From contig CAHJWM010000001.1 of assembly GCA_903642325.1 (NCBI GenBank), positions 186,001 to 250,000 on the forward strand: a DNA stretch of 64,000 nt. Reading direction: 5' to 3'. A program made the position numbers and the translations under genes. This document shows, in pieces, positions 22,598 through 60,631 of the stretch. Positions within the stretch are counted from its first letter, which is position 1. The number at the start of each line of letters is the position of its first letter. The notes beneath the pieces were generated by a model that was not told the origin of the DNA, did not search any database, and saw only the letters and a program-made list of their open reading frames with translations. Origin of the DNA: Myxococcales bacterium. GTDB lineage: Bacteria > Myxococcota_A > Polyangia > Polyangiales > Polyangiaceae.

Positions 22598-23413
22598 TCA
22601 CTGCACCGACACCTCGCCCGAAAAGACGCGCTTGGCGGGACCACGCATGGTCACTTCCAACGTCTCCCGGGAGACCGTGATGTGCAGTGGACCGCCTGGC
22701 AGATGCACCTCGATCTCCCTGTCGTATGGCACGCGACCCTGAAGCGCCGCTGCGACCGCGACCGCGCAAGCTCCCGTCCCACAGGCCAAAGTTCGCCCTA
22801 CGCCACGCTCCCACACGATGACATCCAGCCGGAGCGGGTCGCGGGCGCTCACGAGCTCGACATTGGTTCCGGCGGGGAGCTGCGACGAAAGCGCTGGACC
22901 AAGCAGGTCCAGATCCTGCTCACCGAACCGCGTGTCGAAAATAATCGCGTGCGGATTGCCCATAGAAACGCGAGAGAAAGTTAGTTCTTCGCCGCGGAAC
23001 GCGAATGTTAGGTCCGCCTCGGGCAGACCGCGGCCCATGCTGACGGACACGAAACTGGCGTGCGCCGCGCCCTCCACGGCAACCAGCCGCGGCCCCGCAT
23101 CCGTGTCGATGATGAAGCTCGCGCTATCTCCGCCGTCCCGGTGAGCAAGGTGCAGCGCCACGCAGCGCAGCCCGTTGCCGCACATTTCGGGCCGACTACC
23201 GTCGGCATTGAGCACGACCATGGTCGCGCGCGAGCCGAGGCTCCTGGGTGCGGTGACCAGCAGTATGCCATCACCGCCTACGCCAAAATGACGATCGCAG
23301 AGCGCCGCAACCTGCGCTCCGTCGAGCCGCGCATCGGCCGCGCCGTCGACGACCAAAAAATCGTTGCCCAAGCCCTCGTACTTTGCAAAGCGGAGGTTCG
23401 TTGGTTCAATCAT
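22598..23413 (-). CDS. dapF: diaminopimelate epimerase
   Basis: It converts LL- to meso-diaminopimelate for lysine and peptidoglycan. The 271-residue protein has both catalytic cysteine motifs: NADGSRPEMCGNGLRC and ACGTGACAVAVAAAL, plus FAKYEGLGNDFLVVD at the N-terminus and GGDGILLV. The ATG at 23413 is preceded by GAGGCGG, a good ribosome-binding site; the open frame reaches 23620, but those 69 codons have no family match. It is divergent from the aroK-aroB fusion. Confidence 0.96.
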   Translation of the reverse strand: MIEPTNLRFAKYEGLGNDFLVVDGAADARLDGAQVAALCDRHFGVGGDGILLVTAPRSLGSRATMVVLNADGSRPEMCGNGLRCVALHLAHRDGGDSASFIIDTDAGPRLVAVEGAAHASFVSVSMGRGLPEADLTFAFRGEELTFSRVSMGNPHAIIFDTRFGEQDLDLLGPALSSQLPAGTNVELVSARDPLRLDVIVWERGVGRTLACGTGACAVAVAAALQGRVPYDREIEVHLPGGPLHITVSRETLEVTMRGPAKRVFSGEVSVQ

Positions 23414-23712
23414 GGCGCCGCCTCGATCCGTAGCCCGACTTTGCTCCCGAGGCTCTCGTTTCGCCAGTCTTGCGCGACCAGAAACATTCCACGCGCTCCG
23501 CCAAGCCTCGCCCTTCACCGCGCACGGTCGCCGGATCGCTACCGCGCGCCCCCTCGAGCATTTCCGCGCGTGCCGCCCTAAGCTAGACTTCACTGTCGAT
23601 TCTGCCCACTTGGACCGCAATCATTGTCATCGGGTGTCTGCGAGGCTCACCGCGCGCGCGCCCGTACGAGCGGCGGAAGCGCCCTTCACACGGAAGTTAG
23701 AGACGTAACTCG

Positions 23713-26832: not shown

Positions 26833-27213
26833 CTACGGCTCCAGCGCTGGACCAAAATCGAACTCGACCTCGGACTCATCGTTGGCGGCATTGGGGTCGC
26901 TGGGCTTCGACACGCCGAGCTCCGCTGAGTCTGCTTCCAAGGCGGCATCGATGCGCGACACCAAGCCGCTCAACATCTCACGCGCACGCTGCTCGGAGCG
27001 CAATCTTCGATTGCGTTCGTCTTCGAGATCGTGAGCAAGAGAGATCGCCGCGAGTAGCAGCGTCTGCGGCGAAACGGAGCGGCCAGGCGCGGTAAGCTGA
27101 CGCAACCGCGCGTCGACGACGTCGGCCAGGCGATGCAGGTCCGCTTCTTCCGCGGTCGAGGCGACGCGGTAGGTCTGTCCGCCAACACGGAGCTCGACCG
27201 GACCTTTGGGCAT
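26833..27213 (-). CDS. zapA: cell division protein ZapA
   Basis: The 126-residue protein matches ZapA, which binds and bundles FtsZ at the division ring: PVELRVGGQTYRVASTAEEADLHRLADVVD at the N-terminus, then PQTLLLAAISLAHDLEDERNR leading into a coiled coil. The C-terminus is an acidic tail. It faces a long gene-free stretch on its upstream side, which must hold its promoter. Confidence 0.9.
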   Translation of the reverse strand: MPKGPVELRVGGQTYRVASTAEEADLHRLADVVDARLRQLTAPGRSVSPQTLLLAAISLAHDLEDERNRRLRSEQRAREMLSGLVSRIDAALEADSAELGVSKPSDPNAANDESEVEFDFGPALEP

Positions 27214-28680
27214 GGGCGAGCGACGCTAGCACTCTCGCGAGGTGATGGAAATGATGACAAGCACTCATTCGCACGCTCACCGAGGGCCGACAGGTCCGCC
27301 ATTCACCCCCGAAAAGCGCGCAGGTTTTCCACAGTCGCCCGCCATCATGCCGAATAAGAAATAGGCACGACGTGTTAGCCGAAACGCGCAACGTGGGAGT
27401 CCGGCGCACTTGGATGTACACCGCGTTCGCAAAGACGCGCCCACCAGAGTGCTGTGCAGAATCGACTGTCGTCCAGTTTCTGCTCCGGCATTGGAGTCTT
27501 TTCAAAAAGAGCACCGGTGATCGTCTCATTCGAGAACGCCCCTGATTACCATCAAGCGGTTAGGGCGTCCGAGAAATGCTCCGCACCGTGATTGCGCTCC
27601 GGTTACAGACATAGGGACAACGCGCCGCGCATGACACTGCCAATCGACGTGCGTCATCGCCTGACGGCGTGCACTCACCCGATGCGTGTTTGGGTGCTCG
27701 AATGGCGCGATGGGACAGCGCCCATGCCAACGCAGGAGCCGTATGCGAGCAGGCCTATCTCGCTCCGGAATGAAAGCGCGATTGGTCTCAATAGAGTCAG
27801 CGAGGTGCCGGCTCAGCGGCGGGCCATCCGTTCGAGACGGGCCGCGCGCCAAGCGTCATGCGCAATGCGCAATGCGACTTCTTGATGATTCGCGCGCTCA
27901 TGCAACACCGCTAATCTAAAAAGCACGATGTTGACCGCGTCCGGCGCACTTTCACGCCGTCGGCATGAGCAATTTAGCGCGCCCTCTCATGCGCAAAGCA
28001 CCAATTCCAGTAAGGCAATGACGGTGAAGGCGCCGCGCTGGCTCCTTTGGGAGGTGAGCGCGCTCGATGTGTATTGATCGAAGTTTGAACGAAATGACGC
28101 TCTTACTCAATTTGCTCGGAGCTGTCTTAGAGCAAGCGGCAAGCGAATGTCCACTACCTTCCCCGTAGGATTGCTTAGGGGGGCGAACACCGTTACGCGG
28201 CATCAGTCCGGCTGTAACCGGTTGAATTGTTTGGATAACGGAAGCGGGGAGGGAGCTGGACGGCAGCGCCGCACCCAACGTTGAAGTAGGATTTTCGACC
28301 GTTTCACGTGCAACGACAGTGCAGTTGCCTGTGCGCATAGCGCCGCTATCCGTAGACCACGCAGCCCGTCAACGCACCAACGCCCAGCCGTTGCCAGTAG
28401 CTCATCGTCACCGTCACTCACCTCCTCCCTTCTGCCCAGGACCTGCCCACGTCGGGTACGCAATCGGCGATCAATCAGCATGGCTCTTGCGTTAGTAGGT
28501 CGCAGATTCGCATTTGCCTGCTCACGAACCGCGAGCTATGAGCGCACCGCGTCGGATTTTTATGTGTTAAAGTTCTGAGCCGAATATTTCGACTTCCGCG
28601 GCGCCTGACAACGGTCGTGGCGCCACGGAGCCCGCAAAACCTCCCCCGGCTTCGCACCGCCGCGAATAACGGGTCTGTTC
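27214..28680 (+). other. gene-poor stretch upstream of zapA
   Basis: About 1.5 kb holds no open frame that looks like a protein on either strand. Base composition is less GC-biased than the flanks, with short AT-rich patches such as 28551-28595. Visible items are one DnaA-box-like 9-mer (ttttccaca, 27325-27333), one near match on the other strand (tttggataa, 28230-28238), a 13-bp direct repeat (gtccggcgcactt at 27399-27411 and 27939-27951) and a degenerate parS-like sequence at 28300-28315. I see no tRNA, rRNA or recognised riboswitch. The function is unknown. Confidence 0.6.
28300..28315 (+). other. degenerate parS-like site
   Basis: The sequence cgtttcacgtgcaacg matches the parS consensus TGTTTCACGTGAAACA at 13 of 16 positions; the left half-site is almost perfect and the right half carries changes. 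It lies 1.05 kb from the perfect parS in bioF. ParB binding here is plausible but weaker, and chance resemblance cannot be excluded. Confidence 0.4.
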
Positions 28681-28974
28681 CGTAGCTCGGCCTCGTGGCT
28701 TTCGTAGCCTGGCCTCGTGGCTTTCGTAGCTTGGCCTCGTGGCTTTCGTAGCTTGGCCTCGTGGCTTTCGTAGCTCGGCCTCGTGGCTTTCGTAGCCTGG
28801 CCTCGTGGCTTTCGTAGCCTGGCCTCGTGGCTTCGTACCCGGCCTCGCGGCTTTCGTAGCGAATCGCGGCTTTCGTAGCTTGGCCTCGCGCTATCGTAGC
28901 CTGGCCTCGCGGCTTTGATGGCTTGGCCCGCCAGCTCCCTTAGCCCGGCTTCGCGGCTCCCTCCAGTCCGGCCT
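28681..28974 (+). repeat. 22-bp degenerate tandem repeat array
   Basis: About eleven head-to-tail copies of a 22-bp unit run from 28681 to 28916, then decay over another 60 bases. Each unit begins cgtagc, has a variable ct/tt/tc pair, and continues ggcctcgtggcttt. Units 1-6 are exactly 22 bp; later ones are 19-22 bp with cgcgg in place of cgtgg. The order of variants (ctcgg, cctgg, cttgg, cttgg, ctcgg, cctgg, cctgg) suggests a block duplication. Because 22 is not a multiple of 3, coding is unlikely. The array ends about 200 bases before bioF. Confidence 0.9.
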
Positions 28975-29178: not shown

Positions 29179-30327
29179 GTGCGCTTCGAGTCGCTGTTGA
29201 CGCAAACGCTCGAACAACTCGCAGCTGAACATTTACTGCGGGACCCCGACGATGGGAACGCGCGAGCTTCAGTGCAGGCTGCGGCAGAGCGGCGCGGCCT
29301 AAGCGCTCTTGACGCATCGTCTAATGACTACCTGGGCTTGGCCGTAACCGGTGTTTCACGTGAAACACCGGGCAACCCGGGAGCCGGCGCATCCCGGTTG
29401 ATCTACGGCACTGCACCGGAGCACCTGCTGCTCGAGTCAGCCCTCGCCGCGTGGGTGGACACCGAAAGCGCTTTGCTGTTTTCGTCTACTTATGCCGCCA
29501 ATGTAGGTCTGATTTCGTCTCTCGGCGTGCGGGAGTCGGTGATCATATCAGACGTCGGGAATCACGCGTCGTTGATCGACGGGGCGCGATTGGCAAGGGC
29601 CGAAGTCGTTGTGGTGCCGCACTTGGACCTTGAAGCAGTGAGCGCAGCCTTACAGCGACACGCGCGAGCCTGCGCATGCTGGGTGGTGACAGAGTCTTAC
29701 TTCAGCATGGACGGCGACGGACCTAATCTTGCCGAGCTCCGGGTCATTTGCGACCGGTATGACGCTTGTTTGATCGTCGATGAATCGCACGCCCTAGGTG
29801 TGTTCGGCCCCGCGGGGAGAGGTTTGTGCGCTGAGGCGGGCGTCCGGGCCGATATCTTGATCGGGGCGCTAGGCAAGGCGATCGGCACGCATGGCGGATT
29901 CGTCGCTGGCTCGCGCGCGCTGCGCTGCTTTCTTTGGAATCGCGCGCGCAGTTTTGTGTTCTCCACCGCGCCGTCGCCTCGACAAGCGGGGCTCACGTTG
30001 CAGCATCTCGAACAAGTACGGCGCGCTGATTGGCTTAGATCGCGGCTTATTGAGAACTCGACCGCGCTTCGGATACGACTGCGCGATGCCGGTTTGCATG
30101 TGAGCCCGGGTTCCTTCGGGCCAATCGTCTCGATCGTGCTGGGCGATAACCAACGAGTTCTGACATCCGCGGCGCGGCTTCGCGCGGTTGGAATTTTGGC
30201 TCAGGCGATCAGGCCGCCAACCGTACCAACCGGGGCTGCCCGCCTGCGGATCACCGTTAAAGCCAACTTCACCGCCGCCGACATCGAGCGTCTCGCGCTA
30301 GAAGTCGAGGTGTCATGCCGCGAGTAG
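29179..30327 (+). CDS. bioF: 8-amino-7-oxononanoate synthase
   Basis: This PLP enzyme condenses pimeloyl-ACP/CoA with alanine in biotin synthesis. The 382-residue protein has SSNDYLGLA, GAGASRLIYGTAPEHLLLE, the HASLIDGARL segment, DESHALGVFGPAGRG, and the PLP-lysine motif LIGALGKAIGTHGG. The start is GTG 29179. The loop between SNDYLGLA and GAGASRL is shorter than in typical BioF (about 12 instead of 18-20 residues), and a perfect parS palindrome sits exactly there. bioD overlaps its 3' end by 13 bases. bioA and bioB are absent from the window. Confidence 0.94.
   Translation: MRFESLLTQTLEQLAAEHLLRDPDDGNARASVQAAAERRGLSALDASSNDYLGLAVTGVSRETPGNPGAGASRLIYGTAPEHLLLESALAAWVDTESALLFSSTYAANVGLISSLGVRESVIISDVGNHASLIDGARLARAEVVVVPHLDLEAVSAALQRHARACACWVVTESYFSMDGDGPNLAELRVICDRYDACLIVDESHALGVFGPAGRGLCAEAGVRADILIGALGKAIGTHGGFVAGSRALRCFLWNRARSFVFSTAPSPRQAGLTLQHLEQVRRADWLRSRLIENSTALRIRLRDAGLHVSPGSFGPIVSIVLGDNQRVLTSAARLRAVGILAQAIRPPTVPTGAARLRITVKANFTAADIERLALEVEVSCRE
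29348..29371 (+). other. parS: parS chromosome-partitioning site inside bioF
   Basis: The 16-mer TGTTTCACGTGAAACA at 29352-29367 is identical to the canonical bacterial parS consensus, the ParB-binding centromere. It is extended by CCGG on the left and CCGG on the right, so 24 bases form a perfect palindrome. It lies in the bioF reading frame and encodes part of GVSRETPG. parS is commonly found within genes in the origin-proximal part of the chromosome. No parA or parB is in this window. Confidence 0.88.
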
Positions 30328-31007
30328 TGGTTCTGGGTTGTGGAACCGGTATCGGAAAAACCCGCGTCAGTCTGGGCCTACTCCGCGATTTGACGAGCCG
30401 AGCCCACGCCGCAGTGGGACTCAAGCCAATCGAGACGGGTTACGCTTTGCTTGGCACCGGCTCAGATGCACTCGCGCTCGCACAGGCCGGCTCGCTGAGG
30501 CCCAAGACTCATGCTCCTCGCTATTCGTACCATCGCCCTGTGTCGCCTCACCTCGCGGCGCGCGACGCTGACGAAGTGCTCGATTTGAACGCCATACGCC
30601 AGTGGGTTGCTGATGCCGAACGCGATGTAAAGAAAGACAAACTAGCTGCAGCCACGCTTTGGTCCGTCATTGAAACGGCGGGCGGTGTTTTCTCACCACT
30701 CACCGATACGCAAAGCAACTTCCATCTGGCGCGCGAGCTCGAGCCGTCGAGCTGGGTATTGGTGGCGGCCGACGCTTTAGGGGTTTTGCACGATGTCAGT
30801 GCGACGCTTCAAGCCATGGCGGCACGCGGCCGCCTGCCCGATCACTTGGTACTGTCCGCAGCACGTGAACCCGACGCCAGCACCGGGGGCAATGCCGCCG
30901 AGCTCGAGCGATTAGGGATTGCGAAGGTGAGCGCTGTGCTCGCCCGCGACGACGACCAAGGCATTCACGCTCTCACGCAAGCACTGCTTGAAGCGTCGCC
31001 CGTATGA
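30315..31007 (+). CDS. bioD: dethiobiotin synthetase
   Basis: This ATP-dependent carboxylase forms the ureido ring of dethiobiotin. The 230-residue protein has the P-loop VLGCGTGIGKTRVSLGLL, the substrate-lysine region VGLKPIETGY, and ETAGGVFSPLTDTQSN, which corresponds to the EGAGG(V/L).P motif. Usual BioD proteins have Gly-Thr-Asp-Thr in the P-loop; here it is Gly-Cys-Gly-Thr, a mild variant. The ATG at 30315 overlaps the end of bioF, so translation is coupled. It converges with an ABC ATPase gene. Confidence 0.92.
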   Translation: MPRVVVLGCGTGIGKTRVSLGLLRDLTSRAHAAVGLKPIETGYALLGTGSDALALAQAGSLRPKTHAPRYSYHRPVSPHLAARDADEVLDLNAIRQWVADAERDVKKDKLAAATLWSVIETAGGVFSPLTDTQSNFHLARELEPSSWVLVAADALGVLHDVSATLQAMAARGRLPDHLVLSAAREPDASTGGNAAELERLGIAKVSAVLARDDDQGIHALTQALLEASPV

Positions 31008-60343: not shown

Positions 60344-60544
60344 CGCGGAGCGTGCAAATACAGTCACCGGGGCAAGGTACGCGGATCGCTCAGGTTTGTG
60401 TACTCCCCGCCCGTCACTCATCGAACGCGCGAGAGGCGAAGGAGTCGGCTTTTTGCCGCGCGTTCGACGGTCGCTGGTTGATAAGACGCGACTCGACTTA
60501 GAGGCTTGCCCGCTGGCCGTGCGCCTAACCGGTTCTCTAATCGG

Positions 60545-60631
60545 CGGAGGAGGAGGGATTCGAACCCACGGTACCCTTACGAGTACGCCGGTTTTCAAAA
60601 CCGGTGCCTTAAACCGCTCGGCCACTCCTCC
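60545..60631 (-). tRNA. tRNA-Ser (anticodon UGA)
   Basis: The 87-nt minus-strand gene has a GGAGGAG/CTCCTCC acceptor, a GCCGAGCGGTTTAAGGC D-arm region, and the anticodon arm CCGGT-TTTGAAA-ACCGG with anticodon TGA. The long variable arm is typical of tRNA-Ser (tactcgtaagggta), and the T arm is GTGGG-TTCGAAT-CCCTC with one mismatch. Discriminator G is followed by CCGA, so CCA is not fully encoded. It reads UCN codons, mainly UCA. The serpin gene lies downstream on the same strand. Confidence 0.95.

Follow-up and report, generated by a model that had tools for sequence, protein, structure and literature searches.

The closest described system in the same phylum is the ParABS system of Myxococcus xanthus, whose ParB binds consensus parS in vitro, and whose 22 parS sites form a 3 kb cluster located about 4 kb from parA and about 35 kb from oriC (PMC3899335). 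The presence of a parS site inside an open reading frame is also already known. In Corynebacterium glutamicum, parS1 lies inside trpCF, and a single parS is enough for segregation (PMC7083940).

We analysed a 64-kb stretch of DNA (the window) from a Myxococcales bacterium, which carries a parS site within bioF. This genome resembles M. xanthus in having a ParA-ParB operon and the same parS family, but it has only two exact parS sites, both at bioF and on a different contig from parAB. As with trpCF of C. glutamicum, the site lies in coding DNA, within a biosynthetic gene. The trpCF site, however, is one of ten, nine of which are intergenic, whereas here the placement in a loop of BioF recurs in 20 loci and the whole small set lies at bioF. 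The bioF site is an exact match to the canonical parS consensus TGTTTCACGTGAAACA (Livny et al., quoted in PMC3899335), and differs only in position and gene context. In the open-access literature searched, we met no description of parS at bioF or of any Polyangiales ParB, although such an absence is weak evidence.

Exact parS sites in the window and in the genome

The bioF gene (29179..30327, plus strand), encoding 8-amino-7-oxononanoate synthase, was assigned from its open reading frame, matches to BioF structures in PDB, a structure model, and NCBIfam TIGR00858, which was the best family match (E 6e-105) with a score of 351 bits, below the family's cut-off of 426 bits. Its end is overlapped by a gene for a bioD-like AAA_26 protein (30315..31007, plus strand; open reading frame and domain search), which stands downstream of bioF in most relatives. 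Within bioF, a 24-bp palindrome, CCGGTGTTTCACGTGAAACACCGG, occupies positions 29348-29371 and is read in frame as G-V-S-R-E-T-P. It contains the exact canonical 16-mer at 29352-29367 and the 14-mer core GTTTCACGTGAAAC at 29353-29366 (no strand assigned; motif match, genome-wide search and relatives' alignment). The perfect parS site that a sequence-only reading had claimed for bioF was thus borne out. Its 24-bp perfect palindrome is also present, but the significance given to that length was overstated. Among loop sites, only that of the window has this length, and, since the loop sites of relatives conserve only the 14-mer core with varying flanks, it is not meaningful.

The same reading had proposed a genome-wide search, which revealed a site that it had overlooked. 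The exact 14-mer GTTNCACGTGNAAC occurs in two copies in the entire 5.83 Mb assembly, at 29353-29366 and at 28301-28314 of the window (no strand assigned). The latter, GTTTCACGTGCAAC, lies in the upstream region of bioF, 1.05 kb upstream of the bioF-internal site. Both sites match the core and form one small cluster in a single chromosome region. The reversed GTTNCACGTGNAAC control pattern gave no match across the 5.83 Mb genome. When up to three mismatches to the 16-mer were allowed, the window contained three matches, one of them perfect, against 0.08 expected from shuffling. At one mismatch, the genome search returned 11 forward and 10 control matches; because these counts are nearly equal, only exact parS matches are informative. 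Between the two sites, repeat detection found a tandem array of 11 copies of a 22-bp unit (28681..28916, no strand assigned). An Rfam scan of the 64-kb window found one tRNA and nothing else; this is tRNA-Ser (TGA), at 60543-60631 on the minus strand.

A single ParB with residues of the parS type

The genome encodes one full-length ParB, with ParB_N, HTH_ParB and ParB_C domains, directly downstream of ParA. The gene is on contig C5 and the parS sites are on C1; a parAB-linked cluster of the M. xanthus type, with its sites a few kb from the operon, is not seen. The solved structures nearest to this ParB bear the label ParB family protein (7bnk). In the alignment, mapped by eye, Caulobacter R173 (GKDR) is matched by Arg in this ParB, and G201 (EGHAR) by Gly. 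These two positions decide between parS and NBS preference; an Arg/Gly pair is reported to be conserved in parS-binding ParB, whereas Noc has Gln and Arg there (PMC7383237). The genome therefore holds ParA together with a cognate ParB carrying residues of parS-type specificity. These observations bear on the possibility that the palindrome serves another ParB-family protein such as Noc. The top NCBIfam match of the ParB, nucleoid_noc, speaks for it, but the score is 232 bits against a cut-off of 315, the two key residues are not those of Noc, and there is a single such protein in the genome. We regard a Noc-type site as very improbable.

Upstream of the Walker motif of the organism's own ParA, at a distance of about 200 bp, lies a one-mismatch parS, GTTGCACGTGAGAC (L003, G000:C5:33976-33989). 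This degenerate site was dropped as a candidate part of the system, as it was absent from the parAB loci of 12 relatives.

Clustering of parS at bioF among relatives

We examined 97 genomes, comprising the window's own and those of the same genus, family and order; the named bioF records are mostly from Polyangiaceae, Sorangium and Myxococcales. One strong ParB was found in 93 of the 97. Exact parS sites numbered 192 in total, against 22 for the reversed control pattern; 82 genomes had one to five, 13 had none, and two had more. For the analysis of location, bioF was found independently of parS and its flanks were then fetched; those 59 loci that are flanked by 2.5 kb or more on each side were used. 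In the corresponding genomes, 108 of the 134 genome-wide parS sites were within 2.5 kb of bioF, where chance would place about 0.1 if a mean genome of 7 Mb is assumed. At least one site lay there in 52 of the 59 genomes, and all sites did in 43. The presence of the site in close relatives, on which the earlier claim depended, was confirmed in six of six same-genus genomes in which bioF was located. Three further families of the class (G135, G168, G181) also had parS within about 3 kb of bioF, and none of 36 loci from phylum members outside the class had parS near bioF. This order-wide clustering at one locus, along with the lack of any reversed-pattern match in the window's genome, leaves a vanishingly small probability that the palindrome arose by chance, in favour of which there is nothing but the shortness of the motif.

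Counted against a centromere at bioF are the 13 relatives lacking an exact parS, and three genomes (G025, G051, G060) in which parS lies away from bioF. Six loci without the exact site at bioF had no shared alternative palindrome there. One genome with no exact parS genome-wide (G089, locus L130) carries GTGTCACGTGAAAC twice in the vicinity of bioF; this may be a variant site.

Probable dual coding of parS and BioF

In the window, parS codes for BioF residues V59-T63, which fall in a low-confidence coil of a structure modelled by AlphaFold (eight sequences, mean pLDDT 81); residues 43-76 have pLDDT below 50, so that the model does not place the loop. Altogether, 20 bioF loci from 19 genomes (G007 counted twice) carry parS in this loop, between NDYLGL and GAGASR. 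The reading frame is always V-S-R-[E/A]-T, giving VSRET in 17 loci and VSRAT in three. The BioF proteins of these loci are just 50-58% identical, and the parS core is intact while its flanks have diverged. In a quick bioF tree, 17 of the 20 loop loci fall in one group of 20 rows, drawn open with support 92; the placement at the N-terminus, described below, mostly forms a separate group. The loop label needs at least seven changes on this tree, which indicates that gains and losses of parS in the loop occurred.

Conservation of VSRET could mean that the peptide is what BioF needs and that the DNA palindrome is a by-product, and the near-identity of the peptide among loop loci fits this view. 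The codons, however, are the rare ones demanded by parS. With the peptide fixed and codon usage taken into account, the motif would be expected at a V-S-R-x-T site with a median probability of 10^-3.6 (over 23 sites, two of them at alignment position -19). Moreover, many BioF proteins of the same family lack the peptide, and the same DNA motif is found elsewhere in other readings or outside bioF. An N-terminal group reads it as F-H-V-K, with ATG-TTT-CAC-GTG-AAA-CAY in G027, G032 and G056, and in some genomes it overlaps the bioF start codon (MFHVKH); the start codons of this group were estimated from the alignment. In family f6, the site is near the C-terminus and is read V-P-R-G-T, and G003 and G007 have a second parS in bioF read L-H-V-E (LLHVER). 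The third frame, which would contain TGA, was never seen among the bioF sites examined. Selection for the peptide is accordingly a highly improbable explanation, and the 14-letter core is almost certainly a real parS written inside bioF, as judged from sequence comparison. One genome (G058, locus L105) has an 84-residue BioF loop that holds two parS in frame, and seven parS spread across about 4 kb.

The earlier reading had proposed a loop trimmed to fit the site, to be checked by asking whether palindrome and short loop co-occur in relatives. The comparison ran the other way. In the window's own family (f1) and f8, the median loop length was 15 residues with parS and 11 without it, kinship being ignored, and in other families the median was 19. 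Since parS-free loops of f1 and f8 are shorter still, parS is not the cause of shortening, and short BioF loops are, on the sequences compared, a lineage trait. The best reading is that BioF may accommodate a dual-coded parS since the site falls in a variable loop.

Gene neighbourhood and chromosome position

The surroundings of parS and bioF differ between families f1 and f8 and the others. In f1 and f8, the upstream genes are dapF (22598..23620 of the window, minus strand), a shikimate kinase/DHQ synthase fusion, and the cell division gene zapA (26833..27213, minus strand), the last being near bioF in 36 loci of these families; ABC, MoxR-type and TgpA-like genes follow downstream. Other families have uppS, dnaJ-like and peptidylprolyl isomerase genes as neighbours. 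One f2 genome (G060) bridges both types, as dapF and a dnaJ-like gene flank its four parS, and has bioF on another contig; its parS beside dapF links it to the window's neighbourhood. In G064, G078 and G090, parS is next to the dnaJ-like gene with no bioF seen within a 3 kb stretch. Assembly breaks could hide a nearby bioF copy in some of these. These four genomes, which keep parS without bioF nearby, argue for a conserved centromere neighbourhood of which bioF is the usual resident, and do not sustain the suggestion of a link between the centromere and biotin itself. From these gene orders, bioF is probably a long-term neighbour of parS rather than its functional partner.

A functional tie would be expected if parS were kept because ParB loading regulates bioF/bioD transcription, coupling biotin supply to segregation. 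Class-wide, parS is in, at the start of, or no more than about 2 kb from bioF, in some genomes over its start codon, and in Pseudomonas aeruginosa ParB at an intergenic parS represses adjacent genes (PMC7022226). On the other hand, parS occurs before bioF, within it, at its C-terminal end or after it, in no constant arrangement with a promoter, and the genomes with parS but no bioF in the fetched flanks or on the same contig do not fit. We consider such regulation unlikely. The fuller proposal, a class-wide minimal centromere at bioF with parAB opposite, at which ParB loading directly controls biotin synthesis and couples its supply with segregation, is distinctly unlikely.

In the window genome, dnaA, parB and bioF are on three different contigs. 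Five genomes that are closed or nearly so, two of them from one genus, have parS at 1.1, 1.3, 5.4, 6.3 and 9.6% of the chromosome length from dnaA. With dnaA as proxy for the origin, these relatives, in which parS and bioF are 1-10% away, would agree with the origin-proximal placement that had been predicted. Sampling of GC skew in two closed relatives (20 sparse samples of 20 kb) gave no significant origin or terminus signal (permutation p 0.08 and 0.22), and because it was uninformative dnaA is only a proxy. Unlike in M. xanthus, parAB is not linked to parS in the closed relatives; each of the five (G027, G038, G045, G071, G086) has it 40-48% of the chromosome away from dnaA. Outside the class, parS lies within a few kb of parB in four genomes. 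Family f23 (G103, G169, G172, G108), of the same phylum and outside the class, also has parS and parB unlinked; no parS was present at two bioF loci checked among these four.

Discussion

Genome-wide uniqueness, conservation at bioF, codon constraint and the type of ParB together indicate that 29353-29366 is very probably one of two parS sites that form the centromere of this chromosome, loaded by the single ParB and selected as DNA. On established ParABS biology, this ParB, encoded with ParA on another contig, would nucleate at the two parS sites and close there into a CTP-bound clamp, which would slide onto adjacent DNA, bioF included. ParA would then move the ParB-bound region, and SMC loading is possible. 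Selection at the DNA level would keep parS, while BioF would tolerate V-S-R-E-T in its variable loop. The neighbourhood of the centromere probably goes back to the ancestor of the class, individual sites having come and gone within a few kb, with parAB far off.

If this is true, certain bacterial genomes of 10-16 Mb, which are among the largest, would segregate from one to few ParB-loading sites, held at one neighbourhood class-wide, with the loader genes far from both the sites and dnaA. The locus would provide a clean case of one DNA stretch read as both protein and centromere, in which lineages solve the overlap in different frames and positions. These organisms would also become testable, as there is now one named locus at which to place a tag or a mutation.
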